From assembly GCA_023954155.1 (NCBI GenBank), contig JAMLIO010000003.1:124001-188000 (forward strand): DNA of 64,000 nt, in the 5' to 3' direction. Positions 11,726 to 30,429 of this stretch are shown here, piece after piece. The notes beneath the pieces were generated by a model. That model saw nothing but the letters and a program-made list of their open reading frames with translations, did no database searches and was not told where the DNA came from. Each line of letters opens with the position of its first letter. Within the stretch, counting starts at the first letter, position 1. Origin of the DNA: Pseudobdellovibrionaceae bacterium. Lineage in GTDB: Bacteria; Bdellovibrionota; Bdellovibrionia; Bdellovibrionales; UBA1609. Position numbers and translations under genes: made by a program.

Positions 11726-12414
11726 TGATAGGGCAAGCAGTCCAAAGAAAATAAGCTTAATGTGAACGCACGATCGGGCTTCATTTTGGCCTTGCGGAAA
11801 TAATACTTATCGTCCTCTTCTTTATCCTTGGCTTCATTGGCATCAATCTCACTCAGACGGCGCTGTACTCTGGTTTTGGGTATTGTGGCAGGGTCTTCTA
11901 CCAGTAAACCCAAGGTGGAACTCACAAGAGCATTCCACTGTTCTTGAGGATAAAACATATTGTAAAATTCGCGAACCCGACAAAAAGTTTTTAAATCTGA
12001 AGACTTAAGCCAGCCCACCTTCTCAAATTGGGTTCCAGGTGGACGATCTCCCCAAGCCAGTTGCACCATAGTTCTTAAGTATTGTCCAAAAGACAAACTG
12101 ATCATGGGAGTTTCTGCTAGTTCCATTAAACATTTTTCTTGCAGCTTGGGCATGTCGCCAACTACAGACTCAAAAATTTGAAAGTACTCTACACATCCTG
12201 AACCACGAATAGAATTGATACACTTTTTTCTGGCTGGTGAAAGTCGCCCCAAAAGCTTGCCTTTCTGACTCCGAGAGAACTCATTGATCTGAGCATCACA
12301 CAGTTTATAAAGAGGTTTATCATACATAAAATAGGCTAGAGCACCTACGAGAATGATGGCCACAAACATCCATTCAGGAATATATCTGAATATTTGCGAC
12401 AGAAAACGTTCCAT
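11722..12414 (-). CDS. Unknown membrane-anchored protein
   Basis: I do not recognise this 230-residue protein. It has one N-terminal transmembrane segment (about 13-31, WMFVAIILVGALAYFMY) and a long soluble part probably in the periplasm. Seven scattered cysteines, several in CINSIRGSGC and LKTFC contexts, could form disulfides. Residues 190-215 are highly charged (ANEAKDKEEDDKYY). The start codon overlaps the stop of the upstream secreted protein in a TAATG arrangement, so the two are translationally coupled and likely act together in the envelope. No catalytic motif is visible. Confidence 0.7.
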   Translation of the reverse strand: MERFLSQIFRYIPEWMFVAIILVGALAYFMYDKPLYKLCDAQINEFSRSQKGKLLGRLSPARKKCINSIRGSGCVEYFQIFESVVGDMPKLQEKCLMELAETPMISLSFGQYLRTMVQLAWGDRPPGTQFEKVGWLKSSDLKTFCRVREFYNMFYPQEQWNALVSSTLGLLVEDPATIPKTRVQRRLSEIDANEAKDKEEDDKYYFRKAKMKPDRAFTLSLFSLDCLPYQ

Positions 12415-12920
12415 TACACGGGCTTACCACAATTCATAAATTTTAAATTGATCGGGTTCTGAGCTTTCGAGTCCTTTTGTAACCACAAGGCACGATCTAA
12501 AGGGCAAAAGAAGATCTTATATTTTTTAACATCAAAGACTTGTGTGATCTGCACGATCTCTTTAAAAAAATCTTTTAGTCCCCCAATGGCATCTGCGGCT
12601 TTTGGGTTATCGTTGTAGTTCTTTAACGAAGAGTATGCAGAATCTAGAATTTTAGTGATATGTACACTTTGCACATCATGAATCTTTTCGGATAAACTTT
12701 TTACCTCTACCAATTTTTTTGCCAGGTTAAGAGCTGTTTTTTGCGCTTCTTCTTCGGCCTTATTCACCCGTTCTTTATGAAATTCTGCTGTAAGACTCAG
12801 CACGACTTCAATCTCTTGAGTCAGTCTCTCGTCCATTTTCATCCGTTTAGAAGCCCAAACACTTGCCGTGGCCACTTGTCCTATTAAAACTACCAGTAAA
12901 AAAACTGAACACACTTTCAT
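12414..12920 (-). CDS. Unknown secreted helical protein
   Basis: A 168-residue protein with a Sec signal peptide (MKVCSVFLLVVLIGQVATASVWA) followed by a mainly helical, charged mature region (HKERVNKAEEEAQKTALNLAKKLVEV). There are two late cysteines (FFCPLDRA and MNCGKPV) that could pair. No family is recognised. Its stop overlaps the start of the following membrane-anchored gene by one base, pointing to a two-gene envelope unit. Confidence 0.7.
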   Translation of the reverse strand: MKVCSVFLLVVLIGQVATASVWASKRMKMDERLTQEIEVVLSLTAEFHKERVNKAEEEAQKTALNLAKKLVEVKSLSEKIHDVQSVHITKILDSAYSSLKNYNDNPKAADAIGGLKDFFKEIVQITQVFDVKKYKIFFCPLDRALWLQKDSKAQNPINLKFMNCGKPV

Positions 12921-13022
12921 GTCTTAAGCATATTAGATTTTTTATTTTTTTACAGGTCTAGTTTTTGGTTGCCAATTTAGGGATTTTATTGTTGCCCCCT
13001 CAACCAGACCTTGGCCTGAATT

Positions 13023-14393
13023 TTAGAAAGAAATTTCCACACCTAGTCTTTGAAAGAAAATCTGAGCATCTTTGCCATAAGCTTTCAGATAATCCCCAGG
13101 TAAAAGTAGCCCCGTGATAGACTGAAACCTAAGCCCAGATTCGGTTTGCAGTTCATAGGTCAAGTCCATCTCGTGTCCAATAAATTTTTCAGTGGAGTTC
13201 AAATTATTGTTATAGGGTCCATCTAAAGACGCCCCAGAATCCCACACCAGTGAGTTTCCTCCCAAGGCCCCAAGGCCACGAATACCAGAAGAGGCCGAAG
13301 TACGATAAAAACGATTATATTCTAAAAAGAATCTCGAGTTGCTTCCCAAAACCCATGTCAAACCCGCACTGTAATAGGTCAAATTGCTCCAGCCCAATAA
13401 GTTCATCTTTCCTGCATTTTGGAAATGGTTGTAGTAAAGGGGGTCATAGCTTTCATCTACGCCCGCTGTGCTTGCGTTATCTCCTGTGTCTGTATGGTAT
13501 TGGATATAAACTCCCAACTGCCACGGCTCATAAGCTATAAAACCTGTGCGCCCATGTAACATGTGAGCACGAATATCTTGTCCAGAGGTTCTGTTTACGC
13601 CTTCTTGGATCACTCCATCAAAGCTGTAAAAAAAACGTCCTGTCTCGCCCGTTAAAGAGATAGCGTAAATGTCCTTTTCTTCTTTAGGAAAATTCACTGG
13701 TAGAGGCACTGTGAGGGCCATCTCATCACGATCAAGCATCATAAACGTAAAGCTGATATTCTTTACATAAGGCTCAAGAGCTTTTAGGTCTGCGTTCAAG
13801 AAATAAATTTTATAGTCTTGATCATCATAGGCGGCAGCCCCAGAGGACCAGCTAGAGATCGCAAAGCCCCCAAGCTGAAACCTTGCCACATCGGTTTGGT
13901 ATTGAAAATATCCACCGTCAAAGCGTGTGGGGTAATCGTCATCTAGGTTTTTGGAAAACACGGCCCCATTGCCAATTTCAAAAGGCGTTCGACCCACAAA
14001 TACAGAAAGTCCCGAAGCAAAATTCCACTCTGCATTGGCCTCATACAGTTGAAGCATCTCTTGATCTTGACCACTGAAATAGGGGTACCCAGCGTAACCC
14101 AAGTAGTCGCTCCCCCAGGTTTCAAATCCCAAAAGAGAGGCTTTAAATTTTAGATTTTCCTGCGCCTTAAAGTTAGCGGAGAGAATAATTTGGTGAGCCA
14201 AACGGTTGGTCTTTCCCCCAGAAACCCCCGCAGGACGATGCAGGGATTCAAAACGCGAACGATAATTCCCCATCCACTGAATGTAGGTGGGGTTAGATTG
14301 CTGCGCAAAGGCCTCTGCCAAGAACAGGGCTTCCATAAGACCTGCACAAATCATTAGCAAAATAAGATGCGTAAGAGCTTTCGTATTCGTCAT
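13023..14393 (-). CDS. Outer-membrane beta-barrel porin, alginate-export-like
   Basis: The 456-residue protein has a signal peptide (hydrophobic stretch to AEAFA-QQ) and then alternating aromatic/polar beta strands across its whole length. It ends in the strand RLGVEISF with a C-terminal Phe, the BAM recognition signature of outer-membrane barrels. The arrangement YRSRFES, NLKFKASLLGFETWG, GLSVFVGRTPFEIGNG and FFLEYNRFYR resembles the alginate-export/OprD-like porin group; the solute is unknown. It is a single gene on the minus strand, ending 102 bases upstream of the secreted unknown gene and starting about 100 bases from tRNA-Pro. Confidence 0.8.
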   Translation of the reverse strand: MTNTKALTHLILLMICAGLMEALFLAEAFAQQSNPTYIQWMGNYRSRFESLHRPAGVSGGKTNRLAHQIILSANFKAQENLKFKASLLGFETWGSDYLGYAGYPYFSGQDQEMLQLYEANAEWNFASGLSVFVGRTPFEIGNGAVFSKNLDDDYPTRFDGGYFQYQTDVARFQLGGFAISSWSSGAAAYDDQDYKIYFLNADLKALEPYVKNISFTFMMLDRDEMALTVPLPVNFPKEEKDIYAISLTGETGRFFYSFDGVIQEGVNRTSGQDIRAHMLHGRTGFIAYEPWQLGVYIQYHTDTGDNASTAGVDESYDPLYYNHFQNAGKMNLLGWSNLTYYSAGLTWVLGSNSRFFLEYNRFYRTSASSGIRGLGALGGNSLVWDSGASLDGPYNNNLNSTEKFIGHEMDLTYELQTESGLRFQSITGLLLPGDYLKAYGKDAQIFFQRLGVEISF

Positions 14394-14491
14394 AAACCCA
14401 TGTTAAACGAGTTTTTTTGAAAAAAGTAGTGCTTCTAAGCCAAGAATAGTATAAACCAATATCTTCAAGTTCAGTCATGGACAATTCGACT

Positions 14492-14568
<77 letters not shown>

Positions 14569-14690
14569 TTTAAATTTCACGAGCCCTCGACCACCCAAAT
14601 CACCTAATTACTTAATATTACACCACTTTTAATTTGGTTCGTATGATATTTCACTTGATGGTACAGATGGGGTATCGAACCGTCTCTTAA

Positions 14691-14726
14691 TACAATAGTT
14701 GCAACCTTGCAAATATTGTATATACT
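14691..14726 (+). promoter_or_regulatory. Palindromic MarR operator overlapping operon promoter
   Basis: Positions 14691-14720 form a 30-bp inverted repeat matching at 13 of 15 positions per arm, with outer arms TACAATA/TATTGTA and two inner TTGCAA boxes. TTGCAA at 14699-14704 and TATACT at 14721-14726, 16 bases apart, read as -35 and -10. A start site near 14733 would leave almost no leader before the ATG at 14735. The position is ideal for autorepression by the MarR protein. Confidence 0.75.
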
Positions 14727-14734
14727 CATATGTC

Positions 14735-15154
14735 ATGAGCAGCAAAATAATAAATTCACCAATTGAACGTACCACTAGAAAACTATTCAGTATCGTTATT
14801 GAACGCCTGGCCGTTGTCATTAGCAAAGAGAGCTTAAGTTTCTCTCAGGTCGCCGCTCTTCACATTATTGATCGAGAGGGGTTCATTAACATTAATGACA
14901 TTTCAAACAAACTCAATCTCTCTGTGTCTGCGTCTAGCAGAATGATTGATGAACTTGTGAAAAAAGAATTTGTTGAAAGAAAAGAAGATCCCAAAAACAG
15001 AAGAGTTAAAATTTTATCTCTTTCACCAGATGGCGAGCACTTTATGAACAACCTAAGTATCGAAAGAGTGAAAATAATAAAACAATCAGCCAACTTGATA
15101 GTAGACAAAGTAAAATTAAAAATAATCGAAAAAAGCAAAGGGAGAAAAAAATGA
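14735..15154 (+). CDS. MarR-family transcriptional regulator
   Basis: The 139-residue protein has the MarR winged helix: LSFSQVAALHIIDREG, ISNKLNLSVSASSRMIDELVKKEFVERKEDPKNRRVKILSLS, with the DPKNRR wing. Flanking helices (about 5-30 and 110-139) form the dimer interface. ATG at 14735 is taken as start because the promoter and palindrome lie directly upstream; a longer frame from 14699 would start inside the operator. Its TGA overlaps the ATG of the next gene (ATGA), so it is the first gene of the efflux operon. It probably represses itself and the operon until an inducer binds. The absence of cysteine argues against an OhrR-type thiol sensor. Confidence 0.9.
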   Translation: MSSKIINSPIERTTRKLFSIVIERLAVVISKESLSFSQVAALHIIDREGFININDISNKLNLSVSASSRMIDELVKKEFVERKEDPKNRRVKILSLSPDGEHFMNNLSIERVKIIKQSANLIVDKVKLKIIEKSKGRKK

Positions 15155-15582
15155 AAACCATTATAATCGTATCACTAATTTTGGTGGCAAATGCAGCCAG
15201 TGCGCAAAGTCATGATCATCATCAAAGTCATTCTAAAAAAAGTGATCACCATTTAGAAATAAAAAAACAGTTTAAGCCTACAGATGATCTTAAAGTTCGA
15301 ATGGAAAAGGTCTTAAGTCTGATGAAGGAATTAAAAGTAAAAAAAGATGATGTAAAGAGCATTAAAGAATACGGAGATAAACTCACTCTCACCGTTAACG
15401 ATATATTCAAAACTTGCAAGCTTGATCCAGAAGCAGATGAGGCCATTCACCCATCACTAGGATTAATTCTTGATGGGGCTCAAGAATTTAAAAAGGGTCA
15501 ATATGATAGTGGTCACAAAAAAATTCACGAGGCCCTTTTAGATTATGAGAAGTTATTTAAGCATGAAGGATGGAATCATTAG
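15151..15582 (+). CDS. Secreted His-rich helical protein, possible metal binder
   Basis: The 143-residue protein has a clean signal peptide (cleavage near ASA-QS), then a histidine-rich stretch (HDHHQSHSKKSDHH) suited to binding Cu, Zn or Ni. The rest (45-143) is predicted helical and contains one cysteine (FKTCKLDPEADEAIHPSLG) and a late HEGWNH. The C-terminal half looks like a small helical bundle; no family is recognised with confidence. It overlaps the MarR gene by 4 bases, with GGGAG upstream, and precedes an efflux transporter. A role as periplasmic metal chaperone or sensor for the pump is inference. Confidence 0.75.
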   Translation: MKTIIIVSLILVANAASAQSHDHHQSHSKKSDHHLEIKKQFKPTDDLKVRMEKVLSLMKELKVKKDDVKSIKEYGDKLTLTVNDIFKTCKLDPEADEAIHPSLGLILDGAQEFKKGQYDSGHKKIHEALLDYEKLFKHEGWNH

Positions 15583-15636
15583 AAATTTAATTTAATAAAT
15601 CAAAGTTTAGAACAGACTAAAAATGAAAGGTTTAAA

Positions 15637-16059
15637 ATGGAAACTCAATTAGAAGGTAAGAAAAACATTGTCATTGGTCTCTTTTCAATGGCTGCGTTCA
15701 TGCTCTATGGCTTTTTATTAATATATTTAAGAGACTTTGCACCCAATGCGGCGGAGTGGGCTGCTGCTTATGGCAGTGGTAAGCATTTCGAGGCTAGACT
15801 AGCTCATGTCCATGGTAATCTTTTCGCTTTTTTAAATATTGTCATTGGTTATCTACTTTTCAAACTCGACATCAATTCAACTCAAAGAAAAATTGTGTCT
15901 TGGTTAGGTATTCTAGGTCTATTAATGCCGATTGGCATTTTGTTAGAGCTACTTTTGTCTGCATCTCCAATTTTTGTACTTATTGGAGCAGTATGTATGA
16001 CTGCCAGTGTTTTTTTGTTGGGTTACTTTTTAATGAAATCCAAAAAGGTAGTGATTTAG
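15637..16059 (+). CDS. Four-helix membrane protein with HxHG motif
   Basis: The 140-residue product has four predicted transmembrane helices (about 10-30, 53-75, 84-107 and 110-133). An ARLAHVHGNLFAFLN segment opens helix 2 and resembles histidine pairs in haem-copper-oxidase-like small proteins; whether it binds haem or metal is not shown. No firm family is recognised. ATG is preceded by GAAAGG. It is the third gene of the MarR operon and lies 37 bases before the RND gene. Confidence 0.72.
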   Translation: METQLEGKKNIVIGLFSMAAFMLYGFLLIYLRDFAPNAAEWAAAYGSGKHFEARLAHVHGNLFAFLNIVIGYLLFKLDINSTQRKIVSWLGILGLLMPIGILLELLLSASPIFVLIGAVCMTASVFLLGYFLMKSKKVVI

Positions 16060-16096
16060 ATTCTTGAGATCAAAGGAACCAAGAAAAGGTGGATAA

Positions 16097-19000
16097 ATGA
16101 AAAATGTAACCCTCTATTTTATAAAAAGACCAATTCTGGTAAATTTTATTTTGGCGCTCAATTTTATTATTGGTGGCTATTTCATTTATAAGGTTCCCAA
16201 GGAAGCCTTCCCTGGCGTTTCAATGAATCAGATCGTTATTGTGACTAAGTACCCTGGAGCATCGGCCAAAGATGTTGAGTTGAATGTCACTGTGAAGCTG
16301 GAAGAGAAGATCGCTGAAATTGGAAATATCAAAGAATATCGTTCAAGTTCCATTGAAAGTGTATCAAGGGTTACAATCTTTGCAGACGATAACTTAAATG
16401 AACTCCAATTTAAAGATCTTCTATTAGATGTGCAGACTGAAGTGGATAAAATTGATGATTTCCCATCAGATATTGAAGGTCAACCCATTATTACCAGTGT
16501 TACAACGGAAGATCGTCCAATTATGGAGATTGCCTTTACTGGCGATTATGCGCACTTAAAAAATACCTTACATGAAATAGAAAATGATCTTCGTAAAGTT
16601 TCAGGTGTTTCAAATGTAACTTTGGTGGGTCTCCCTGATGAAGAAATTCACATCGAAGTAGACGCTAATAAAGCTCAGGAAAAAGAAATTGATCTTAATT
16701 CGATTTACTTTGCGATCAATACTAGAAATCAAGTCGGAACAGGTGGAACGCTTGAATCTTTTTTATCTCAAAAAAAGATTGTTTCATTTAATAAATACGA
16801 CAAAGCAGAAGATGTTCTAAATACGGTAATTAGAATGTCACCTGATGGTCAAGGAGTTTACTTAAGTGATGTCGCTGAATTAAATTACCGACCTAAAGAT
16901 GAAAAACTTATTGTTCGTAATAATGGAAACCGTGGAGCTTCAATCCTAGTGGCGATTAGAAGTGGTGTAGATCAGTTAAAAGTATCTGATCAAATCAAAG
17001 AGTTTTTAGCAAATCTAGCACTCCCAGATGGTGTAACTTACAAGCTAAATAATGACGTATCTGATAATGCAAGAAGTAAGTTCTCTCTTCTCAAGAATAA
17101 TGGTCTCATTGGTTTTATTCTTGTTCTTATTCTACTCTTTTACTTCCTTGGTGGTAAACCAGCTTTTTGGACGGCATTTGGTATTCCCTTTTCCATTTTT
17201 GGAAGCATGATTATGTTTGTTCCTATGGGGATGACACTTAACTCAGTTTCAATGGGGGCATTTGTAATCGTTCTTGGGATGATTGTTGATGATGCTATGG
17301 TGATAAGTGAACGTTTCGATGTCAATATCGAAGATGGCCAATCACCAGAGGAAGCGGCCAGTAATGCTGTGGGAAGGCTCTGGAAACCAGTGTTAGCATC
17401 ATCTTTAACAACGATAGTAGCATTTTTACCATTATTAGCATTAGGTGGCCTATCAGGTAAATTTATTTGGCAGATGCCTACAGTTGTCATGATGGCGTTG
17501 TTTGTTTCACTTATTGACTGCTATTTATTATTACCAGCTCACCTTGCTCATGGGTCAAATAAAAAGGGGCAATATCAAAAAAATAAAATTGTCGTTTTTG
17601 GTGAGAATTTATATGAAAAACTACTTCGCAAGTTAATTGATCACCGTTATTTTGTGACACTTGGATTCTTAGGGATACTTGGTTTTAGTGTCTTTATTGG
17701 TGCAACAAAAGTAAGAAAAGATTCTTTTCCGCAAGAGGCCTCTGAAGGATTCACGATTAAAGCAACCCTTACAAAAGGATATGCTCCCGAAAAAGTCGAA
17801 GAAATAATCAGTGAATTAGAAAAGAGTATTCAAAGTCTAAAAAAGAAAGAGCTTGTAGGATATACCACGAGAATCGGTACACATAGCTTAAGCTCCCTTA
17901 CAAATTTAGGAACCGAAGAAAACTTAGTTGCTTTTATGGTTTATTTAACTCCCTATAGTGACAGAAATAGAACTGCTCAAGATATTGTAGATGATATTCG
18001 CGCAAAACATTACAGATTTTATACAGAAAAAGGATACGGTTTAGAATTTGACCTGATGCGGATCGGTCCCCCACTTGGCGAGCCATTTGAAATAATTATC
18101 TCTTCAAACAACAATGAAAACCGGGCGAACTCCTCACTAAAAGTAGCCAATTTTTTAAAGATGATTGATGGTCTCTCTGATGTGAAAGACGATCAAATTG
18201 AAGGAAAAGATGAGATTAATCTTAGGCTAAATTATAAAAAAGTTGCCCAAGCAGGTTTAACACCGGCAGACATTATCAGGACTTTAAGAATTGCTTTTGA
18301 TGGTCAGGTTGTCACAGATTATTCGTCAATAAATGAAACTTATGATTTTCGCTTGAGATTGAACAAAAAAACGAGAGGAGATTTAGATTTTGTTTCCAAT
18401 CTCCCGATAGCAAATAAGCGTGGTCAGCTTATTAAGTTAAACACGATGATTGAGTATGAAGAAAGACCATCTTTTGCAGAGATTAAGCATTTTAACGGTC
18501 AGCGATCAACATCTATTACAGGAAATATAAATACAGAAAAGATTACAGCAGTTGAAATGCTCAAGAAATTTAACGAAACTTTTGTCAAAGATAAAAATGT
18601 TAAATACACAATTAGTGGACGTCCAGTAGAGGAAGAAAAAATTTTTGCTGGCTTAAAAATTGCTGCGGCACTGGCGATTATTGGAATATATTTTATCCTA
18701 AGTTTAATGTTTGATTCTTATGCAAAACCTTTTTTAATATTAACAGTAATCCCTTTTGGAGTTGTAGGAATATTTCTATCCTTTTTTGCGCATGGATTAC
18801 CAATTTCGATGTTTGCAGGAATCGGTCTAATTGGTCTTTCTGGCATCGTTGTTAATGACTCCATCGTTCTTGTAGATCATTTAAGTCAACGACTTAAAGA
18901 AAATGCGAAATTCTCTATAGATGTTCTCATCCAAGGGGCCAAAGAGAGGCTTCGTCCAATCTCTTTAACTACCGTAAGTACAATGCTCGCCGTGGCTCCC

Positions 19001-20623
19001 ACTGGATATGCTATTGGTGGTTATGACTCCTTGTTGTCTCCACTGTCATTGGCAATACTTTATGGACTTTTATTTGGAACTACGGTCGTTCTTATTTTAA
19101 TGCCCAATCTATACGTAATTGGCAATGATCTAGGAAACTATATGAAAAAGGTTAAAGGTAACAAAAAGGCAGCACATTTATCAGTTTTATTAATCCCACT
19201 CATAATTGGTTTACACACAAAAGAAGTTAAGGCCGAAGCAAGAATAAACATTAAAAGAATTGTAGAACTTGTCGAAGATACCAATGAATTTAAGATTCAA
19301 AATGAGTCAGTAAGTCAGTCTGAATTTGGCATTGATGCAGTTGATGGACTCCTCGATTCAAAACTGAGTTCAAAGTTTTTTAAGTATTCCTCGGTAAATT
19401 ATCCCAACCCACCGATCTCTCTTGATTCTGAGAAAGAAGGATTCGGACTTAGTTTTGATTACGAAAAAATGACTTCATTTGGAGTAAAACTTGGTTTGGG
19501 GGTTGGATTTGAGGATAAAAAGCTTGGAACAATTCCGGCCAATAATCAATTTAATCTTAATGCGATGGATACTGTTTATAAAGCAAGTATTGCCGCTCCG
19601 CTCTGGAGAAACTTTGGCAGTAAGGAATATCACTTAAACAGAAGTGCTGCCCTTACCAAAAAGAGTGGCCAAACCCTTCAAGGTAAATCTTTAAAGGACA
19701 AACTAATTATCGATGCTGTCACTCATTATTGGTCGATAGTTAAGTTAGAAGAAGAGAGAGAAATTGCTCAAAATTCACTGACACGTTTTAAAGAACTACA
19801 TAAATTGAACATAACAAAAATAAAGTCTGGAATTATCAGTAAGTCCGAGTTCTTAACTTCTGAAGTTGAAATTACAAGTCGAGAGAAAATCTTAAAAGAT
19901 TTAGAGTCTAGGATAAGAATTGAGAAATTAACTCTAGAAAGTGCTTTAGAACTGAAATCTTCTGTTGTGATTGAGCATGACAAAATGAATGCTTCTAGTT
20001 CAATTCTAAGCAGCAAAAGTAGTTCTGCTCTAAATTTAGTAGAGTCTGGTCTTACCTATAAACAAATGCAAAGTAATAGTGAGCTTTTTGATGAATTGGT
20101 TTCAATTGAAAACGAAAAAACAAAATCAAATGTTGATTTTTTTGTATCTTTAAAGAGTTTTGGACGTGGTGATAATTTAAGCAACTCAATTAGTGAAAAC
20201 ACTCAAGATAAATACGAGGTATTTGCTGGTGTGACTTGGGATCTTGACGTAGGAACTAAGAAAAATGATTCTGCTATAGCAGCAGCGATGAGTCGAAAAA
20301 GACAAGCAGACTACAGGAGAAATAAGACCAAGCTTCAACTTATAAAGAGCGTAGAGTCGCTAAAAGAAAAAGTAAAATCTAATAAAGAGCAGATTGTATT
20401 TCTTGAAAAGATGAAAGAGCAACAGTTCAATATTTTGAAAGCTGAAAAGAAGAGGTTTGAAAATGGTAGAATTACAACATTAGACTTTGTAAAACTACAA
20501 GAGGCTTATGATAGAAGCTCATTGCAAGTTATAGCACTTAACTTTTCAAATGAAATAACCGCTCTTAATTTATATTTTACGGTTGGAAAGACGGATGAAT
20601 ATTTACGGTCATATATGGAGTAA
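16097..20623 (+). CDS. RND efflux transporter fused to TolC-like outer-membrane factor
   Basis: One 1508-residue frame encodes two pump parts. Residues 1-1010 are a complete RND permease: TM1 near 12-31, periplasmic loop 1, TM2-6 with the proton-relay pair in GMIVDDAMVISE (Asp398/Asp399), loop 2 from about 540, and TM8-12 with GLSGIVVNDSIVLVDH in TM10. Residues 1016-1046 look like a Sec signal peptide (MKKVKGNKK, hydrophobic LLIPLIIGL, then EVKA-EA). Residues 1047-1508 are an outer-membrane factor with two long helical hairpins (RFKELHKLNITKIKSGIISK and RFENGRITTLDFVKLQEAYD) and barrel strands. An internal ATG at 19142 has AGGA 6 bases upstream, so the factor might also be made separately. 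No adaptor (HlyD-like) gene is present. The sequence is A+T-rich. Substrate is unknown. Confidence 0.88.
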   Translation: MKNVTLYFIKRPILVNFILALNFIIGGYFIYKVPKEAFPGVSMNQIVIVTKYPGASAKDVELNVTVKLEEKIAEIGNIKEYRSSSIESVSRVTIFADDNLNELQFKDLLLDVQTEVDKIDDFPSDIEGQPIITSVTTEDRPIMEIAFTGDYAHLKNTLHEIENDLRKVSGVSNVTLVGLPDEEIHIEVDANKAQEKEIDLNSIYFAINTRNQVGTGGTLESFLSQKKIVSFNKYDKAEDVLNTVIRMSPDGQGVYLSDVAELNYRPKDEKLIVRNNGNRGASILVAIRSGVDQLKVSDQIKEFLANLALPDGVTYKLNNDVSDNARSKFSLLKNNGLIGFILVLILLFYFLGGKPAFWTAFGIPFSIFGSMIMFVPMGMTLNSVSMGAFVIVLGMIVDDAMVISERFDVNIEDGQSPEEAASNAVGRLWKPVLASSLTTIVAFLPLLALGGLSGKFIWQMPTVVMMALFVSLIDCYLLLPAHLAHGSNKKGQYQKNKIVVFGENLYEKLLRKLIDHRYFVTLGFLGILGFSVFIGATKVRKDSFPQEASEGFTIKATLTKGYAPEKVEEIISELEKSIQSLKKKELVGYTTRIGTHSLSSLTNLGTEENLVAFMVYLTPYSDRNRTAQDIVDDIRAKHYRFYTEKGYGLEFDLMRIGPPLGEPFEIIISSNNNENRANSSLKVANFLKMIDGLSDVKDDQIEGKDEINLRLNYKKVAQAGLTPADIIRTLRIAFDGQVVTDYSSINETYDFRLRLNKKTRGDLDFVSNLPIANKRGQLIKLNTMIEYEERPSFAEIKHFNGQRSTSITGNINTEKITAVEMLKKFNETFVKDKNVKYTISGRPVEEEKIFAGLKIAAALAIIGIYFILSLMFDSYAKPFLILTVIPFGVVGIFLSFFAHGLPISMFAGIGLIGLSGIVVNDSIVLVDHLSQRLKENAKFSIDVLIQGAKERLRPISLTTVSTMLAVAPTGYAIGGYDSLLSPLSLAILYGLLFGTTVVLILMPNLYVIGNDLGNYMKKVKGNKKAAHLSVLLIPLIIGLHTKEVKAEARINIKRIVELVEDTNEFKIQNESVSQSEFGIDAVDGLLDSKLSSKFFKYSSVNYPNPPISLDSEKEGFGLSFDYEKMTSFGVKLGLGVGFEDKKLGTIPANNQFNLNAMDTVYKASIAAPLWRNFGSKEYHLNRSAALTKKSGQTLQGKSLKDKLIIDAVTHYWSIVKLEEEREIAQNSLTRFKELHKLNITKIKSGIISKSEFLTSEVEITSREKILKDLESRIRIEKLTLESALELKSSVVIEHDKMNASSSILSSKSSSALNLVESGLTYKQMQSNSELFDELVSIENEKTKSNVDFFVSLKSFGRGDNLSNSISENTQDKYEVFAGVTWDLDVGTKKNDSAIAAAMSRKRQADYRRNKTKLQLIKSVESLKEKVKSNKEQIVFLEKMKEQQFNILKAEKKRFENGRITTLDFVKLQEAYDRSSLQVIALNFSNEITALNLYFTVGKTDEYLRSYME

Positions 20624-20627
20624 AAAA

Positions 20628-20903
20628 ATGAAAGAATTACCAGAAAATGTAAATGTATATAAACGCACTCCTGATTTTAATCAAGAAACCATCCCTGCTG
20701 GATTATTGAAGGCCCATACAACAAAAGAAGGAACTTGGGGAAAAATTTGTGTCTCCAATGGGAAATTACTATACACAATCGAGAAAGAACCACAGGAGAC
20801 AATAGAACTAATGCCCGGGAAAATTGGAGTTGTGGAGCCACAAGTTCCACATCATGTAGAACCATTGGGGGATGTTGAGTTTCATGTGGAGTTTTTAAAA
20901 TGA
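20628..20903 (+). CDS. DUF1971-domain protein (TehB-associated cupin-like)
   Basis: The 91-residue protein matches the DUF1971 pattern throughout: LPENVNVYKRTPDF, TIPAGLLKAHTTKEGTWGKI, GKLLYTI, GVVEPQVPHHVEPLG, VEFHVEF. This small cupin-like domain is also found next to or fused with TehB-type tellurite-resistance methyltransferases and in YeaR-type proteins. The histidines in PHHVEP could bind a metal. ATG at 20628 follows GGAG, which overlaps the stop of the RND fusion gene, so translation is probably coupled. Its stop overlaps the next ATG (ATGA). Confidence 0.83.
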   Translation: MKELPENVNVYKRTPDFNQETIPAGLLKAHTTKEGTWGKICVSNGKLLYTIEKEPQETIELMPGKIGVVEPQVPHHVEPLGDVEFHVEFLK

Positions 20904-21313
20904 GCGATAGAAATAAGAAAGTCATTGCCTTTACTTTGGGCTTGCTCGCAATTGGCTTTGGAGTAATGACGATAAAATCTGGAGGATTTGCTCTCTTTGG
21001 TGGAGTTGAAGGAAAGGATTTTGCTGGAAGGTATGTTCCATTTGTACTTTGGTTTAATTTCATTGCTGGTTTTTTCTATGTCATATCAGGGATTGGCATT
21101 ATTCTAAAGACCAAATGGGCCCTAAAATCATCCATCATTCTGGCAGCTTTGACACTGCTAGTATTTTTGGCTTTTGGAATACATATTTTTTTAGGAAATC
21201 CCTATGAGACGAGAACCATTGGAGCAATGTCCATTCGAACCATTTTTTGGATATTCATTTCCGTCTCTTTAATGAAAATTGGATCAAATAATAAGCAGGA
21301 AATTTCTCTTTAA
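20900..21313 (+). CDS. Four-helix membrane protein, last gene of efflux operon
   Basis: A 137-residue inner-membrane protein with four predicted helices (about 8-27, 46-70, 76-97 and 108-126) and short charged ends. No motif is recognised. It overlaps the DUF1971 gene by 4 bases and so belongs to the same operon. Its 3' end overlaps the 3' end of the convergent small gene 21255-21485 by 59 bases. That is more than usual and may mark the boundary of the acquired segment. Confidence 0.7.
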   Translation: MSDRNKKVIAFTLGLLAIGFGVMTIKSGGFALFGGVEGKDFAGRYVPFVLWFNFIAGFFYVISGIGIILKTKWALKSSIILAALTLLVFLAFGIHIFLGNPYETRTIGAMSIRTIFWIFISVSLMKIGSNNKQEISL

Positions 21314-21485
21314 TTTTATTTGAGTTATTTTTTATCAAGGCAGAACTAAACTGCTGAAGCGCCGGCAACCCCCGATCCAACTTCTTAATGGTTTCAACCT
21401 TGAATTCTTTGATCAGACTTGGGGCCATATAGCTGCCTGAAACCAGTAAAATAATGGCTGCTACTATTTCTGCTACTGCTTTCAT
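21255..21485 (-). CDS. Small membrane-anchored or secreted protein
   Basis: A 76-residue protein with an N-terminal hydrophobic segment (AVAEIVAAIILLVSGSYMA) and a basic helical remainder (KEFKVETIKKLDRGLPALQQF). The ATG at 21485 overlaps the TGA of the upstream HTH gene (ATGA) and has GGAGGAAG upstream, so the start is well supported. The last 19 or so codons run into the convergent operon gene, so the C-terminus may have been replaced when the neighbouring block was joined. No family is recognised. Confidence 0.6.
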   Translation of the reverse strand: MKAVAEIVAAIILLVSGSYMAPSLIKEFKVETIKKLDRGLPALQQFSSALIKNNSNKIKEKFPAYYLIQFSLKRRK

Positions 21486-22036
21486 TTTTCTTCCTCCTGT
21501 TGGCGGCGAACAATGGTAGTCACTACGGACTTGTCCCATTGCCCACCTTTTTTACTTTTAATTTTTTTATCGTTTAAGTGCTTAGCGATTTGACGAAATG
21601 ATTGGTCCTCTTCATGAAGCTTCATGATCAGCTTTATGACTTGCTGCTCCTTTGGGCTTGAAACGATCTGGCCCTTTACCAACATTTCCCCATACTTCAC
21701 TCGAAGCATTTGGGTGCCTTGATCCTTATTCAAGCCGTGAAGTTTGATGGCATCCAAGACAGAGGTTTTGGGCCAAGCTGAGTCAGTTACGACTACAATC
21801 TGCCTCATAGAGAGACCTAAATCGAGGTAAAGCTTCTTGAGTATTCCGTAATTTTCCGCTGGCGTATTGAAAAAATGTGTAATAAAAACAGAGATATAAC
21901 TAAGATTGGGAAGCGGTTCGTTTAGCGTTGCGGTTGCCCGACCAATTTTAACAACAAAGCGTAAAACCACTCCTTCATCCCCAAATTTGACCTTCTGCGG
22001 ACGGGAGGCTCTTGCACTGCGGACGGCGCGCTTCAA
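21482..22036 (-). CDS. HTH / recombinase-C-terminal-like DNA-binding protein
   Basis: The frame encodes 184 residues. Residues about 62-105 form one helix-turn-helix (YGILKKLYLDLGLSMRQIVVV...VLDAIKLHG). Residues 115-178 resemble the DNA-binding tail of serine recombinases (SPKEQQVIKLIMKLHEEDQS, FRQIAKHLNDKKIKSKKGGQW). The catalytic resolvase domain is absent, so it is not an integrase itself. The first 50 residues are Arg-rich and unconvincing; the true start may lie downstream, or the 5' end may be decayed. It is coupled by ATGA to the small membrane gene and sits at the right edge of the A+T-rich block. Confidence 0.6.
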   Translation of the reverse strand: MKRAVRSARASRPQKVKFGDEGVVLRFVVKIGRATATLNEPLPNLSYISVFITHFFNTPAENYGILKKLYLDLGLSMRQIVVVTDSAWPKTSVLDAIKLHGLNKDQGTQMLRVKYGEMLVKGQIVSSPKEQQVIKLIMKLHEEDQSFRQIAKHLNDKKIKSKKGGQWDKSVVTTIVRRQQEEEK

Positions 22037-22135
22037 AAATCAGTCCGATCATGAATGCAGAGTGGACTTCAAAATTTAGGTTACAGCTCTTAGTCTGCCT
22101 TAATGGCTGGTGAGATTTCACCGATAAGTATAAAT

Positions 22136-22467
22136 ATGAAAACTTTTTTATTCTTACTTTGTATCTCTTTAGCTGCATGTGCGTCCAGTCCCCCATTACA
22201 CTGCCGTAAACGAGTCAGGAAAACCGCCGAAGCGAAGTATAGCGAAAGAGGGTTTTTCAATCGAAAGGCCGCCAGCTTTTTTGGAAACCTGCGGGAACGG
22301 CACTTAGGAGCTATCATCAATGTGAAAGAGCCAAAATTTGTCATGTCATAGATCAATTTAAGTCTCTGAGTGGCGATTCTGGGCGTTTGGTGCCGTTTAA
22401 GCATGGCTGCACATCTCAAAAGTATGTGAGTGATTTTGATCGGGCATTGTCTGAATTTTCTAGATAA
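22136..22467 (+). pseudogene. Decayed lipoprotein gene with two frameshifts
   Basis: ATG at 22136 opens a lipoprotein signal (MKTFLFLLCISLAACASS, lipobox LAAC). The frame should shift by one base in the C5 run at 22190-22194, after which it reads HYTAVNESGKPPKRSIAKEG...FLETCGNGT. A second shift near 22300 continues as CERAKICHVIDQFKSL, HGCTSQKYVSDFDRALSEFSR and a stop at 22465-22467. The composite of about 110 residues reads as a genuine small lipoprotein. Two independent shifts suggest decay, though sequencing error cannot be excluded. Confidence 0.55.
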
Positions 22468-22750
22468 ATAAAAATATAATTAAAATTTCATATTAAAAGG
22501 CCTTACTGTTTCTTAGTATGTGATGCTCACGCATTTAACAGAAACATCCTCTTTATCCAATGCGGACCCTGCACAAAGAAATTTTGTGGGGGATTGAGCC
22601 CCAGATACCGAACTAGGCTGCCTTCTTCGGTAAAGCTTTAAAAAATTTTACGCATGTTGTTCAATATAGTTTCAGAAGCATTACGACGTAAGTGATGATC
22701 CCTTTAAAAGGATCTTCTGTTCAACTCTCTTTATGGGTAAGACCTGCTTT

Positions 22751-24514
22751 CTACTTCCACTCCGAAATTTTTTTCAAAAAGAATCCTGAGCTATATAGGA
22801 CTACTCCCGTAAATAGCAGACATAAAATTCGTATGATTGTGGGAGCTGAAGCGGCGTCATAAAGCAATGCCTTGCCTGCGGCCAAACCCAGAACCAATAA
22901 GGCAGACTTAGCCATAATCTCATCCTTTCTGTTATAAGAAAAAAGAATGACTGCTAGGGCATAAAGCAACCAACACATTGAAACCGCCAGAGAACCATAT
23001 TCTCGAACAAAATTATAAAAACCCGCAATTGCAAGAATATGGGTTGCTGTCAGAAGTGCGACTCCTAATGCCTTTGTAGATTCACTTGCTATCAATTTAG
23101 GATTTGTGGCAAACATGATCCATATAGTGATAAAAGCGGCAACAGCAGCAAGAGAGACATTGAGATCACTTCCATTTAATAGATGCGAAACAATCTTAAA
23201 ATATTCGATAATGCCAACAGCCCCGAGACAAATCTGTAAAGCCAGCAAAGCATTGTTTGATAGCGTAGAAGTCATCTTTTTTAGAGGATAAAATAGAAAT
23301 CCTACCAGAAGTAAAGTCAATAACCACGGACGAAAACTCTCTGGCATCAGTACCAAATAACCAGAATGAAATGCGACAATCGAAATAAAAGCAAAGACAA
23401 CACCATCGCTGTGCAGTTCTTTTTGAACCATCCACTTTTTTGCCAACAAATATAGTCCCATCAATAATCCTGCAAAACCTAAAGTGACCCATGGGGCAAT
23501 AGCAGGTTGAATTTGATAAATGAAATTATATTCTACGGCATAAAATATTAGGAGTACGGGAAAGAAACACCAGGCTTCAACTTCTGACAAAGGCAGCTTG
23601 GTTTTCTTGCTATGAAAAAAGGTTCCGACAGCAAAGATACAAAAATGTAATCCTAATAATGAAGCCGAAAGGGCATAATATTGCGTGCCCACACCCCCAG
23701 CAATACTAGTTAAAACAATAGCAAGATATGACGCCACCAAAGTCAGTAAGCGTGATTGAATAGAAATTGAAATTACAGAGTAAACCAAAGAACAACAAAT
23801 ATAGTAGTAAGATAGTAAATAAAAATTACTTTCTGCGAGAGGGCTGATATCTGCATCTAAAATTAAGGGAGACGCATAAGCCCCAATGGCTGAAACGACA
23901 GCATAAATATCATGTCTAATTTGAGTGTAAAGCCAAATACAGGCTCCAGAAATAGCACTTGTTAAAATTAAAGACAGATTAAAATTAAATAAGGAGTAAA
24001 AACCATAACCCGCATAGATCGTAAGAAAAAGGACAATGATTCCTGCAGCTGGCAACAGACTGGAGTAACCCCAATCAAATTTTTTTAAATACAGGCCCAT
24101 CCCAATAAGACTGAAACCTAAAAGAGCGGCCAAGCCCATTTGTCTTTCAGGAGTCAACCAGCCTGAGTCTAAAGAAAGCTTAATAATAAAGCATCCAGCT
24201 AAAACAAAACAGATCGCAGCAACCACACCCAACCAGTTTGCTTCTCTAAAATAAGCAGGCTCAGACTTTTTTGATCCTGAAGGGCGTGGAGAGTAATTAA
24301 CAGGCTTACTTTTTATATTATATGTTGGTGTTACTGGTGTATTTTTTTGAGCTGGGTTTTGCACTTCAGCTTGAGGTTGCACTTGGGACCTAGGTGCAGC
24401 ATGAGCCTGTGATTGCGTTTGGGGTTTAAATTCTAATTTAGAAATTGAGGTTTCAATTTGACTTAAACGCTTTTCGATAGAGTTAAGTCTATCTTCCATA
24501 TTTGCTATGTCCAT
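22751..24514 (-). CDS. DUF2339 polytopic membrane protein
   Basis: The 587-residue protein begins with a coiled-coil (MEDRLNSIEKRLSQIETSISKLE) and a Pro/Gln-rich linker to about residue 90. Some 16-18 transmembrane helices follow and run to the C-terminus. The coiled-coil plus linker plus many-helix plan, with ANWLGVVAAICFVLAGCFIIKL as first helix and HDIYAVVSAIGAYASPLIL inside, fits DUF2339. Members are conserved inner-membrane proteins of unknown role. The start ATG has AAGGA upstream. The gene is a single unit; the roughly 280-bp region downstream, up to the lipoprotein remnant, shows only a weak GATCC/GGATC hairpin near 22695-22715. Confidence 0.8.
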   Translation of the reverse strand: MDIANMEDRLNSIEKRLSQIETSISKLEFKPQTQSQAHAAPRSQVQPQAEVQNPAQKNTPVTPTYNIKSKPVNYSPRPSGSKKSEPAYFREANWLGVVAAICFVLAGCFIIKLSLDSGWLTPERQMGLAALLGFSLIGMGLYLKKFDWGYSSLLPAAGIIVLFLTIYAGYGFYSLFNFNLSLILTSAISGACIWLYTQIRHDIYAVVSAIGAYASPLILDADISPLAESNFYLLSYYYICCSLVYSVISISIQSRLLTLVASYLAIVLTSIAGGVGTQYYALSASLLGLHFCIFAVGTFFHSKKTKLPLSEVEAWCFFPVLLIFYAVEYNFIYQIQPAIAPWVTLGFAGLLMGLYLLAKKWMVQKELHSDGVVFAFISIVAFHSGYLVLMPESFRPWLLTLLLVGFLFYPLKKMTSTLSNNALLALQICLGAVGIIEYFKIVSHLLNGSDLNVSLAAVAAFITIWIMFATNPKLIASESTKALGVALLTATHILAIAGFYNFVREYGSLAVSMCWLLYALAVILFSYNRKDEIMAKSALLVLGLAAGKALLYDAASAPTIIRILCLLFTGVVLYSSGFFLKKISEWK

Positions 24515-25530: not shown

Positions 25531-28500
25531 TTAATCCTCCATTTTAAGTTCGTGTTGAATTTGAATTTGTCTTTGATGTCCCACAAACCAGTAGTAAAGC
25601 ACGGGTACAGCAAAGCGACTTAAGATTGTGGCGGCGATCTCGCCAAAGATTAGGCTCACAGCTAAACCTTGAAAAATGGGGTCTGCTAACATCACTGAAC
25701 TGCCCACAACCACTGCGGCGGCAGTTAAAAGCATAGGGCGAAACCTAAGTACACCCGCACTGACCACTGCCTCTTTTAAAGCCATCCCTTGCGCAATTTG
25801 ATGTTCAATGAAGTCGACCAGAATGATGGAGTTCCTGACAATGATTCCCGCACCCGCAATAAATCCAATCATTGAGGTTGCCGTAAAATACGATCCTACA
25901 AGGGCATGTCCTGGCAGAATCCCAATTAAACTGATGGGAATCGGAGTCATAATAATCAGGGGAACCGTAAAGCTTCGAAACCATCCTAAAACTAGAACAT
26001 AAATCAAAATCATAACCATACCAAAGGCCCCACCCAAATCACGAAAGACTTCATAGGTGATAAACCACTCTCCATCCCACTTCACTACAGGAGCCAGAGT
26101 ATCCCAAGGTACTTCTGCGGTTTGGATGGGATATTTTATTTGTGGTGCCAATTTAAGAATTCCATAAACGGGCGCTTCTTCTGCCCCAGCCAATTCGCTC
26201 ATCACATAGGACACTGGTTTTAAGTTTTTTCTATGAAGGGTGGTCTGTTTAAATTCACGAGGCTCCTTTAAAACATCACTGGCCTCCACGGAACCTGATT
26301 CAAAAGAGGGAATCTGTAAACGCGCAAAGGGTCTGACACTGGAGCGATGATCTTGAGCCACAGATAAATCTACAGAAACATCTTCTGGCGACAGAGTATC
26401 CGATAAGGTAGTGATGGAGGTTTCTGAAAATAACAAATGCCCCAAGTGCATAAGGTCTTCTGCACTCGTTCCTAATAGTCCGCCTTTTTTTTGATCATAT
26501 TCATACAACAAGCGTGTACGCCCTTCTCGCATGGTCGTATCTAAGTCGACCACACTAGGTTCGTTGGCAAAAATCTGGGCCAGCTCTTCAGCGACCTGAT
26601 CACGCACTTGTTGGTTCGGTCCATACACTTCAGCAATCATGGTGGCCAAGACAGGAGGACCTGGTGGGATTTCAAGAACTTTGGTGATGGCTTTCATTTT
26701 TTGACCAAAATCAGAAATCACTGGTCGCAGCTTTTCGATCACTTCGTGACTGGACTGGTCTCGATCATGTTTGGGTGTAAGTAGAACATGAAGATCATTT
26801 TGATAGTCAGTCCCCCTTAGAAAAGTGTGCTTCACCATTCCAGAAAATGAAAATGGTGCCGCTTCGCCTGAAAACACTTGCACCATTTTAACGTCTTTAT
26901 TTTTTAAAATTTCTTGAGCCAGTTCTACAGAATGCTCTTTGGCTATTTCTCTTGGCGTTTCCGCAGGATAATCCACAAGAACTTGGAACTCTTCTTTATT
27001 ATCAAAGGGAAGCATTTTGACCTTTACAGATTTAAAGGCAATTAAGCTTGAGGCGAGCAAAAGTAAAACCATAATGAACGAACCAAAAACTAGAGATGAT
27101 TTCTTTGATCCTAATAATAACTCCATCACACGCTCATAAATTTGATCCAGTCGACTGGATTTTTGCCCTTCTTCTGACTCGTCATGCGATTCTTCTTTAA
27201 GAAGTTTAACCGAAGCCCATGGAGTGATAATAAACGCGACAAACAGCGAAAGAATCATGGCAAGACTAGCACCCACAGGGATAGGTTTCATATAAGGACC
27301 CATCAATCCTCTGACAAAAGCCATCGGCAAAATCGCAGCAATCACGGTAAAGGTCGCTAAAATTGTAGGGTTGCCTACCTCACTTACAGCGCGGATAGTG
27401 GCTTTCACAAGTCCACCCTTTGCTCCTGCACGTAAGTGTCTTTCTATGTTTTCCACCACCACAATGGCGTCATCCACTAAAATTCCTATAGAAAAAATCA
27501 ATGCAAATAGAGTGACTCGATTCAGGGTGTATCCCATAAAATAATAGATCGCCAAAGTCAGAGCCAACGTGACTGGAATAGCAATGGCCACTACAAGAGC
27601 TGCACGCAAACCCATAAAAAGAGCAATTAAAAACGCTACAGAAAAAGTGGCAATCAGCAAATGTTCAATCAGTTCATGGGATTTATCTGAAGCGGTGGAG
27701 CCATAATCTCTGACCACACTCATTTTCAAGTCTGAATTTTCAGGCTTCGACTTCGTCTCTTCCACAAAGACATTCACTCGTTTTAAAATCTGTTCTGCAA
27801 GGGTGACAACGTTTGTGCCTTTACGTTTTGAAAAGACAATCGAAACCGCTTTTTGTGGAGCTTTCCCTTCTTCTACAAGAACCGAACCTCTAACCACTTG
27901 CTCAGGGCCATCCGTGACTTCTGCAATATCCTTAATATAAACAACTTGGCCACCTCGTTGGCCAATGACCACGTTTTTGACATCTTCAAGATTCTTAAGA
28001 CGACCACCGACTTCTACATCTAAAGTTTTTTCGTTGTTCCAGTTTTTTCCTGAAGGTGCCAAAGCATCATTTTTCTTTAGGGCCTGGGCCACAGAAAGTA
28101 GTGAAACGCCTCTTTGATTCATCTTAGTGGGGTCCACAATCACTCGTAGCGCTCGTTTTTGTCCTCCTAATAATTCCACCCGCGAGAGATCGGGAGTGCT
28201 AGACAGCTCTCTGGCTAACGGGGCCACTACTGAACGCAACTCATACTCACTTAATTGGTCTGAGGTGAAAGACAGTACAAGAAAAGGAACATCATCAATA
28301 GAAAATGCCTGAACTTGCGGAGCCATTGCATTGGCAGGAAGTTCACTTTTAATTAACATAAGCTTATGGTGAATTTTAACCAAGCTAGGTTCCATAGGCT
28401 CACCCACTTTAAACCGCACCGTCACCAAACTTCCATGGGGTTGGCTGCTGGAGTAGACATACTCAACACCATCAAGCCCCCACACTGCGCGCTCTATGGG

Positions 28501-28719
28501 TTCTGTGACTTTTCTTTCAATCTCTTCGGCTGTAAATCCAGGCGCGCCCGTTCGTATATCAATCATAGGAACAGAAATTTGTGGTTCTTCTTCTTTCGGG
28601 GTTAGATATACAGCAAACAGTCCCAAAAGAATGCTCACCACCGCAATCACGGGAGTCAGTTTAGAATGTACGAAAGCCTTTCCGATTTGCCCTGCAAAAC
28701 CTAATTTATTGTTATTCAT
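25531..28719 (-). CDS. RND efflux permease (second system)
   Basis: This 1062-residue RND-superfamily permease has TM1 near 22-42 (IAVVSILLGLFAVYLTPKEEE) and two large periplasmic loops. TM4 contains the proton-relay Asp pair in IGILVDDAIVVVENIERHL. TM8-12 are near the C-terminus (MIGFIAGAGIIVRNSIILVDF in TM10). The opening LTPKEEEPQI and GAPGFTAEEIE are common in RND pumps next to ArsR genes. ATG at 28719 follows AGGTGG; GTG at 28728 lies within that site. It lies between the tolC-like gene and DUF2892. No membrane-fusion (adaptor) gene is in the operon. Substrate is unknown; the ArsR regulator suggests metals or thiol-reactive compounds. Confidence 0.92.
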   Translation of the reverse strand: MNNNKLGFAGQIGKAFVHSKLTPVIAVVSILLGLFAVYLTPKEEEPQISVPMIDIRTGAPGFTAEEIERKVTEPIERAVWGLDGVEYVYSSSQPHGSLVTVRFKVGEPMEPSLVKIHHKLMLIKSELPANAMAPQVQAFSIDDVPFLVLSFTSDQLSEYELRSVVAPLARELSSTPDLSRVELLGGQKRALRVIVDPTKMNQRGVSLLSVAQALKKNDALAPSGKNWNNEKTLDVEVGGRLKNLEDVKNVVIGQRGGQVVYIKDIAEVTDGPEQVVRGSVLVEEGKAPQKAVSIVFSKRKGTNVVTLAEQILKRVNVFVEETKSKPENSDLKMSVVRDYGSTASDKSHELIEHLLIATFSVAFLIALFMGLRAALVVAIAIPVTLALTLAIYYFMGYTLNRVTLFALIFSIGILVDDAIVVVENIERHLRAGAKGGLVKATIRAVSEVGNPTILATFTVIAAILPMAFVRGLMGPYMKPIPVGASLAMILSLFVAFIITPWASVKLLKEESHDESEEGQKSSRLDQIYERVMELLLGSKKSSLVFGSFIMVLLLLASSLIAFKSVKVKMLPFDNKEEFQVLVDYPAETPREIAKEHSVELAQEILKNKDVKMVQVFSGEAAPFSFSGMVKHTFLRGTDYQNDLHVLLTPKHDRDQSSHEVIEKLRPVISDFGQKMKAITKVLEIPPGPPVLATMIAEVYGPNQQVRDQVAEELAQIFANEPSVVDLDTTMREGRTRLLYEYDQKKGGLLGTSAEDLMHLGHLLFSETSITTLSDTLSPEDVSVDLSVAQDHRSSVRPFARLQIPSFESGSVEASDVLKEPREFKQTTLHRKNLKPVSYVMSELAGAEEAPVYGILKLAPQIKYPIQTAEVPWDTLAPVVKWDGEWFITYEVFRDLGGAFGMVMILIYVLVLGWFRSFTVPLIIMTPIPISLIGILPGHALVGSYFTATSMIGFIAGAGIIVRNSIILVDFIEHQIAQGMALKEAVVSAGVLRFRPMLLTAAAVVVGSSVMLADPIFQGLAVSLIFGEIAATILSRFAVPVLYYWFVGHQRQIQIQHELKMED

Positions 28720-28728
28720 AGAATCCAC

Positions 28729-30054: not shown

Positions 30055-30057
30055 AGA

Positions 30058-30429
30058 CTAAACCTTTGTAGATTTTAAAGCCTTAACGATTTCAGAGTTT
30101 TGTTTTTCTTCCTGAGTCACTCGCGTCATCAAAAGCACTCTAAGCATTCCACAAGCTTCTTTGATGCCAGGAAGGCCCAAACTGTAATACTGATACAGTC
30201 CTTCTTTTCTGGCTTGAACTACACCTGCCTCTTTTAAAACCGAAAGATGTTGAGACAGATTCGCTTTGGGAATTTTAAGGGTATCTAGAAGTTCTGACGC
30301 ATTTTTTTCGCTTTCGCCTAAAATATCCAAAATCTCTAGGCGAACTGGATGAGCCAGTGCCGAACATATTCCCGCTTGAAGCTCATAAATCTCTTTGGTT
30401 GCTCTTTTATATCCCTTTGTTTTTGCCAT
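30058..30429 (-). CDS. ArsR-family winged-helix repressor
   Basis: A 123-residue ArsR/SmtB-type regulator: CSALAHPVRLEILDILGES, ASELLDTLKIPKANLSQHLSVLKEAGVVQARKEGLYQYYSL is a complete winged helix. Two cysteines, one in the first helix (GICSALAHP) and one near the C-terminus (KEACGML), could sense metals or thiols, but the classical ELCVCDL site is absent. It is the first gene of the minus-strand RND-TolC operon and has an 8-bp inverted repeat upstream, so autoregulation is likely. Confidence 0.9.
   Translation of the reverse strand: MAKTKGYKRATKEIYELQAGICSALAHPVRLEILDILGESEKNASELLDTLKIPKANLSQHLSVLKEAGVVQARKEGLYQYYSLGLPGIKEACGMLRVLLMTRVTQEEKQNSEIVKALKSTKV

Follow-up and report, generated by a model that had tools for sequence, protein, structure and literature searches.

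HAE-1-type RND pumps that work with TolC, such as AcrAB-TolC and MdtABC, are among the closest described systems to the locus analysed here. Whether transporter and channel touch each other in such pumps has been debated for two decades: the relevant section of a published account (PMC4446572) reports that cross-linking and surface plasmon resonance favour direct contact, and that later cryo-EM models with bridging adaptors exclude it. Like AcrAB-TolC and MdtABC, our locus has a complete ACR_tran permease, an OEP channel and an operon that begins with a regulator. Unlike them, it has permease and channel in one frame, lacks an adaptor gene and belongs to an RND clade of its own. A pump operon with permease and channel only, in genomes that often contain no spare adaptor, makes the question of direct docking testable, and the fused pump may show whether RND efflux can work without a bridging adaptor.

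The window is the whole stretch of DNA analysed, 64,000 nucleotides long. Six ORFs, all on the + strand, span 14699–21313 as first described. The tight packing claimed by an earlier sequence-only reading is present, with two starts corrected: 4-nt ATGA overlaps occur at MarR/P143 and at DUF1971/P137, and the remaining gaps are 54, 37 and 4 nt. The features are as follows.

14492..14568, + strand: tRNA-Pro(TGG), just 5' of the operon
14699..14726, + strand: putative autoregulated promoter/operator, TTGCAACCTTGCAA palindrome overlapping the -35, with TATACT as -10
14735..15154, + strand: MarR-family regulator, 139 aa (PF01047, 1.4e-14)
15151..15582, + strand: secreted His-rich protein, 143 aa (P143)
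15637..16059, + strand: four-helix membrane protein, 140 aa (P140)
16097..19126, + strand: RND permease part of the fusion, residues 1–1010 (PF00873, 1.1e-157, residues 7–1008)
19127..19234, + strand: signal-peptide-like junction, residues 1011–1046 (hydrophobic core 1028–1039; VKA ends at 1046)
19235..20623, + strand: TolC-type outer-membrane channel part, residues 1047–1508 (PF02321, 3.5e-19)
20628..20903, + strand: DUF1971 (TehB-N-like cupin), 91 aa (PF09313, 1.1e-25), start corrected to ATG 20628
20900..21313, + strand: membrane protein, 137 aa (P137), 3' of the pump in five of seven loci
21485..22036, - strand: recombinase-domain ORF bordering the block (PF07508, 5.6e-9)

The regulator scores 54.1 bits to PF01047 (cut-off 24.6, Pfam) and is 72% identical to the MarR protein at the L003/L004 loci. 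Translation most probably begins at ATG 14735, for a protein of 139 aa, and not at TTG 14699, because the TTG lies inside the palindrome and the promoter-like site and because the equivalent ATGAGCA start in L039 and L040 is preceded by the same layout. The TTGCA...TGCAA palindrome over the promoter hexamers is common to the region upstream of the L039 MarR gene and is less exact in L040; this shared layout suggests MarR autoregulation. For a single promoter serving the operon, the conservation upstream of MarR speaks in favour, whereas a scan for consensus promoters came out at chance level (23 found versus 23.2 expected).

The fusion has 1508 residues in one open frame, a full RND permease followed by a full TolC-type channel. 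The permease matches ACR_tran over its full length (527 bits versus a PF00873 cut-off of 28), and the channel reaches 69.8 bits against the PF02321 cut-off of 22, with two OEP stretches after the signal-like segment; the two matches bear out the proposed RND-channel fusion. Scores against more specific models lie below their curated cut-offs: 310 bits for CusA/CzcA TIGR00914 (cut-off 701), 431 for NF033617 (1250), 363 for NF000282 (1250) and 311 for TIGR00915 (940). An adaptor concealed within the fusion can be ruled out, as the whole chain is taken up by the ACR_tran and channel domains, with no room left in the ~462-residue channel. Read by eye, the channel tips retain the usual repeat pattern and so give no argument for altered docking.

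Using the junction and channel part as a query (E ≤ 1e–20), we found relatives of the pump in seven of 368 genomes of the phylum: the window genome, G098, G127, G188, G189, G201 and G202. Permease and channel are fused in all of these except G127, with an open frame of 1508–1536 codons. In G127 two genes with a 4-nt ATGA overlap encode the permease (1023 aa) and the channel (490 aa) separately, and this channel is 52% identical to the channel part of the window's fusion. In a quick RND tree, where long branches were flagged and relations among distant clades are unsure, the seven pumps form one clade with support 100, separate from E. coli AcrB, MdtB, MdtC and CusA. G098 is outermost and the split G127 pump is nested among the fused ones; hence the fused state probably came first and was split again in G127. 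The split relative might also hint that the one-frame fusion is an artefact of sequencing or assembly, or a decaying gene, but the frame is open in six genomes at 46–75% channel identity, and we give this explanation practically no weight.

RND permeases have a cytoplasmic C-terminus, so a channel domain fused to one needs an internal export signal. Signal peptidase I sites combine a basic start, a hydrophobic core and small residues at -3 and -1, and these traits occur at the junction of all seven pumps: 3–7 basic residues, a 12-residue core with a Kyte-Doolittle mean of 2.4–2.8 and, in the same alignment column, a [V/A/T]-x-A motif (VKA, VQA, VYA, AKA, AIA, TYA or THA). In the alignment of the seven the junction is the fastest-changing stretch of the fusion. 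Identity to the window's protein is 71–89% for the permease and 46–75% for the channel versus only 12–58% for residues 1011–1043. In G127, where the channel is a protein of its own, the conserved junction pattern stands at its N-terminus and is, judging from its sequence, the ordinary signal peptide of that channel. A junction that evolves fast yet keeps signal-peptide traits in 7/7 pumps makes a precursor cut by signal peptidase the likeliest explanation.

The fusion might instead stay uncut, as a 13-helix inner-membrane anchor that reaches the outer membrane and whose covalent tether replaces the adaptor. The retention of the fusion in six of the seven pumps would fit such a design, as would the split case, a sign that permease and channel form a set. 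However, the join that would form the tether evolves fastest and retains signal-peptide traits only. Moreover, about 7 residues lead from the core to [V/A/T]-x-A and a conserved channel segment follows soon after, a distance probably too short for a tether to the channel's equator. Around the split G127 pump, too, the neighbouring genes are of the same kind (TetR, P137). We consider an uncut tether quite unlikely. The P137 of G127 (L053:319–624) is shortened to 102 aa, perhaps by a frameshift.

A pump-channel precursor is thus well supported by the fusion in six of seven pumps, with G127 split at a 4-nt overlap, and also by comparable fusions in Bacteroidota. Three CusA/CzcA-type proteins (L061, 1464 aa; L067, 1440 aa; L072, 1441 aa) likewise have the RND domain and then the TolC domain in one frame, with a signal-like join as read by eye. 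They differ from the window's pump in being CusA-type and only ~23–24% identical over the RND part, and in having an adaptor gene directly downstream. Fusion and signal-like join appear to have arisen independently in these proteins. Besides the adaptor, their neighbours include the P140 module, a haem-binding-domain gene and a putative P-type ATPase-like gene. A cleavable internal signal between an inner-membrane pump and an outer-membrane channel would, if true, set the ratio of the two in an uncommon manner.

No adaptor gene was found near the pump at any of the seven loci (in G202 coverage extends only ~0.75 kb past the pump). The gap that had been noticed at the window pump is therefore real and is common to its family: none of these loci encodes the dedicated periplasmic adaptor that a tripartite pump has. 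As an ordinary tripartite pump, cut or uncut, the protein could still borrow an adaptor encoded elsewhere. Pumps of other bacteria are known to share adaptors, as AcrD does with AcrA, and the window genome (G000) does contain MacA-like, CusB-like and short 228–237-aa adaptors. We searched G000, G045, G005, G098, G127, G188, G189, G201 and G202 with a profile built from 20 varied adaptors; negatives from this search cover adaptors that such a profile detects, and strongly diverged ones would escape it. G201 and G202 gave 9 matches each, and adaptor neighbours were inspected in the five other genomes of the family. In these five (G000, G098, G127, G188 and G189) each full adaptor adjoins another transporter, and no adaptor pairing with the pump, a possibility that the sequence-only reading had raised, was found. 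In G000 the MacA-like adaptor lies by an ABC exporter and channel, the CusB-like one by CusA, and the short one by another RND gene; of the six RND genes, three, the window pump among them, lack an adaptor in their vicinity, and a fourth is accompanied by no more than a 211-aa remnant. G098 and G127 contain one full adaptor each, beside a CusA-type pump, for 6 and 4 RND genes, respectively. The adaptors found in G188 and G189 adjoin their own RND genes. These arrangements all speak against borrowing, which we regard as unlikely, if still to be reckoned with.

Further evidence against borrowing comes from the wider group. A class-level search with the junction-channel query in 143 genomes added 19 genomes that encode a distantly related channel. 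In 19/19 loci (L140–L158) the genes for this channel and for an RND protein are spaced by -1 to 89 nt, and no adaptor gene separates them; beyond the RND gene, no clear adaptor was found in the 18 loci where that side was covered. These pairs resemble the window's pump in their side-by-side arrangement without an adaptor; they differ in having separate genes, with the channel first, and in belonging to different RND clades. Weak adaptor-profile matches were seen in L147, 3–4 kb from the pump (E 1.2e–5; E 0.008 and model positions 10–57 only in the whole-genome search), and in L157, some kb away (E 0.006). G045, a single contig with 100% completeness, has 5 RND pumps, counted from 6 RND matches because one gene lies in two frames; its single full adaptor adjoins a channel gene, not an RND gene. 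In G005 (one contig, 6 pumps) none of three adaptor-type genes inspected is beside an RND gene. In the quick RND tree adaptor-free pumps spread over several clades. The 19 channel-RND pairs without an adaptor, together with the five pumps and one full adaptor of G045, support adaptor-free function.

Six copper-type pumps have a 148–211-aa protein between the channel and the CusA-type permease (L134:10334–10966, L163:3159–3626, L191:4421–4864, L192:4289–4732, L193:4417–5010 and L194:2947–3420). These reduced adaptors match only profile positions 275–349 of 369 (E 1e–10 to 0.007); hence their hairpin and lipoyl parts are missing. In general terms, RND efflux in Bdellovibrionota may be adaptor-free with direct docking, the present family being made as one precursor and the copper-type adaptors being ~75-residue membrane-proximal intermediates; to this generalization we give slightly less than an even chance.

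The window genome has a third channel-RND pair without an adaptor (G000:C1, L135:19076 to L136:3534), whose channel is distantly related to that of the fusion (E 9e–10). A second RND operon of the window (25534–30429, - strand), with the order ArsR-channel-RND, likewise has no adaptor gene. In loci of other adaptor-free pumps, a 244–253-aa exported protein is encoded ahead of the channel (L164:2615–3373, L169:8485–9216, L173:2735–3487), and one of these proteins has a weak beta-barrel match.

Overall, we suggest, with a probability of about two thirds, that the operon encodes a pump-channel precursor that is cut and probably works without an adaptor, the small proteins being accessory. MarR would silence its own promoter until the substrate releases it. 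The RND part would insert with its C-terminus in the cytoplasm, residues 1011–1046 would act as a second export signal, and signal peptidase I would cut after VKA (1046). The released channel part would then move to the outer membrane, and one message would yield equal amounts of pump and channel. In a less certain step, the pump and its own channel would need no periplasmic adaptor dedicated to them, which also seems to hold for several RND groups of the phylum. P143, P140, DUF1971 and P137 would be accessory envelope proteins that bind or sense the same toxic compound, possibly via a metal or haem. Both the cleavage at the junction and the adaptor-free function are what we infer from the comparison of genes and proteins. 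A literature search that covered few subscription journals found no report of an RND pump fused to its channel, of such internal signal peptides or of RND pumps that lack an adaptor. Fusions and shared adaptors are already known; what stands out here is the absence of adaptors beside many RND pumps of the phylum.

P143, P140 and P137 match no Pfam family above cut-off. DUF1971 reaches 89.9 bits (PF09313 cut-off 23.1) and is the sole copy in the genome. Around the seven pump loci, P137 is present at five, P143 at two and P140 at the window only; relatives' genes come from a simple longest-ORF caller, so starts and small genes there are approximate. DUF1971 lies immediately 3' of the pump in two loci, with another a few kb off in G188. 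The idea that the small genes are conserved with the pump thus stands for the 137-aa protein and largely fails for the 140- and 143-aa ones.

We scanned for P140 in one genome per species (84,980 species) and examined the best 80 of 186 coding stretches. P137 occurs within 5 kb of P140 at 48 of these 80 loci, P143 at 35 and a cupin at 42; two or more of the three are present at 44 loci and all three at 15. An RND gene lies within 5 kb at 32 of the 80, and an adaptor is there too at 31 of these, the sole exception (L126) being close to a contig end. Other P140 partners are ABC exporters (L041–L044, L117); none was seen at L047 and L049. The recurring co-occurrence and the changing exporters indicate that P143, P140, P137 and the cupin form a mobile accessory module that moves with unrelated exporters. 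In Bacteroidota, an operon with the order TetR-P137-P143-cupin-channel-adaptor-RND-DUF2141 (e.g. L098) shares the P140, P137 and P143 families, but its RND protein is ~24% identical to the window's and it has an adaptor and a separate channel. The window's pump was also considered as a member of this P140-linked Bacteroidota pump family and rejected (~24% identity, another clade).

It had been proposed that P143, P140 and P137 may stand in for the adaptor. They share the operon with the pump, and P143 is secreted and helical. However, of the 32 loci (among the best 80 of 186) where P140 has an RND gene within 5 kb, 31 have an adaptor as well, P140 is absent from six of the seven loci of the pump family, and none of the three proteins occurs at 34 control RND loci without P140, most of them adaptor-free. 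The proposal is largely refuted, and we regard it as very improbable.

Structure prediction gave P143 a four-helix bundle (45–135) after a disordered His-rich start. Cys89 and His100 are invariant in 27 aligned sequences, and CXXCH is absent from P143. Cytochromes b562/c', four-helix bundles with haem ligands, were considered as a possible fold for P143. Its best structural match is to 6r6n (VIA Z 11.2, rmsd 2.6, 96 aligned), with a Z of ~9.9 to b562 variants and a best Foldseek E of 0.32. P140 (mean pLDDT 90; His50, Arg54, His57 and His59 invariant) aligns with 8pnu (VIA Z 11.3, rmsd 3.2, 128 aligned) and 3om3 (VIA Z 11.2, rmsd 3.6, 129 aligned), with a best Foldseek E of 0.12. Its fold, predicted at high confidence, resembles styrene oxide isomerase and four helices of haem-copper oxidase subunit I; VIA Z of this size is common among helical bundles, and neither protein shows a sequence relation to its matches. 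No convincing Pfam match was found among 42 P140 members, and searches of the PDB gave no significant sequence relative of P140 or P143. Styrene oxide isomerase is described in the relevant section of PMC11374702 as holding haem b through a histidine. Haem or metal binding by P140 or P143 may serve as a lead only, and metal donation by the small proteins is a guess. Some Bacteroidota P140-module loci contain CusA-type pumps, a haem-binding-domain protein and, on reading the sequence, a putative P-type ATPase-like gene; these neighbours favour a metal or redox theme. In Bdellovibrionota, a cytochrome c556-like exported protein (180–187 aa, CxxCH) adjoins the P140 module at L044, L045 and L050.

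The operon is richer in A+T than its surroundings, as claimed: its GC content is 35.1% versus 41.2% elsewhere (sd 0.6, minimum 39.3, in 221 overlapping windows of operon size across the rest of the 64 kb). Transfer of the block as one unit had been proposed on this basis. The A+T-rich and patchily distributed block supports this in part only, for the operon looks composite. MarR-P143-P140 resembles L039 (72%, 69% and 82% identity, respectively), and fusion-DUF1971-P137 resembles G189 (permease 88%, channel 74%, DUF1971 81%, P137 71%). G189 belongs to another family and lies outside the class, whereas the same-family pumps of G098 and G127 are more distant from the window's, a pattern that fits horizontal transfer.

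The block starts past the tRNA-Pro gene and stops short of the recombinase-domain ORF. The tRNA, the only structured RNA found within 12000–24000 of the window, is a possible insertion landmark; no duplicated attachment site was found, its 3' end being single-copy in the window. Small recombinase-domain ORFs recur near such modules, at L040–L043 as well as beside the window's block, and in L180 two similar ones (4733–5080 and 13611–13958) bracket the pump operon.
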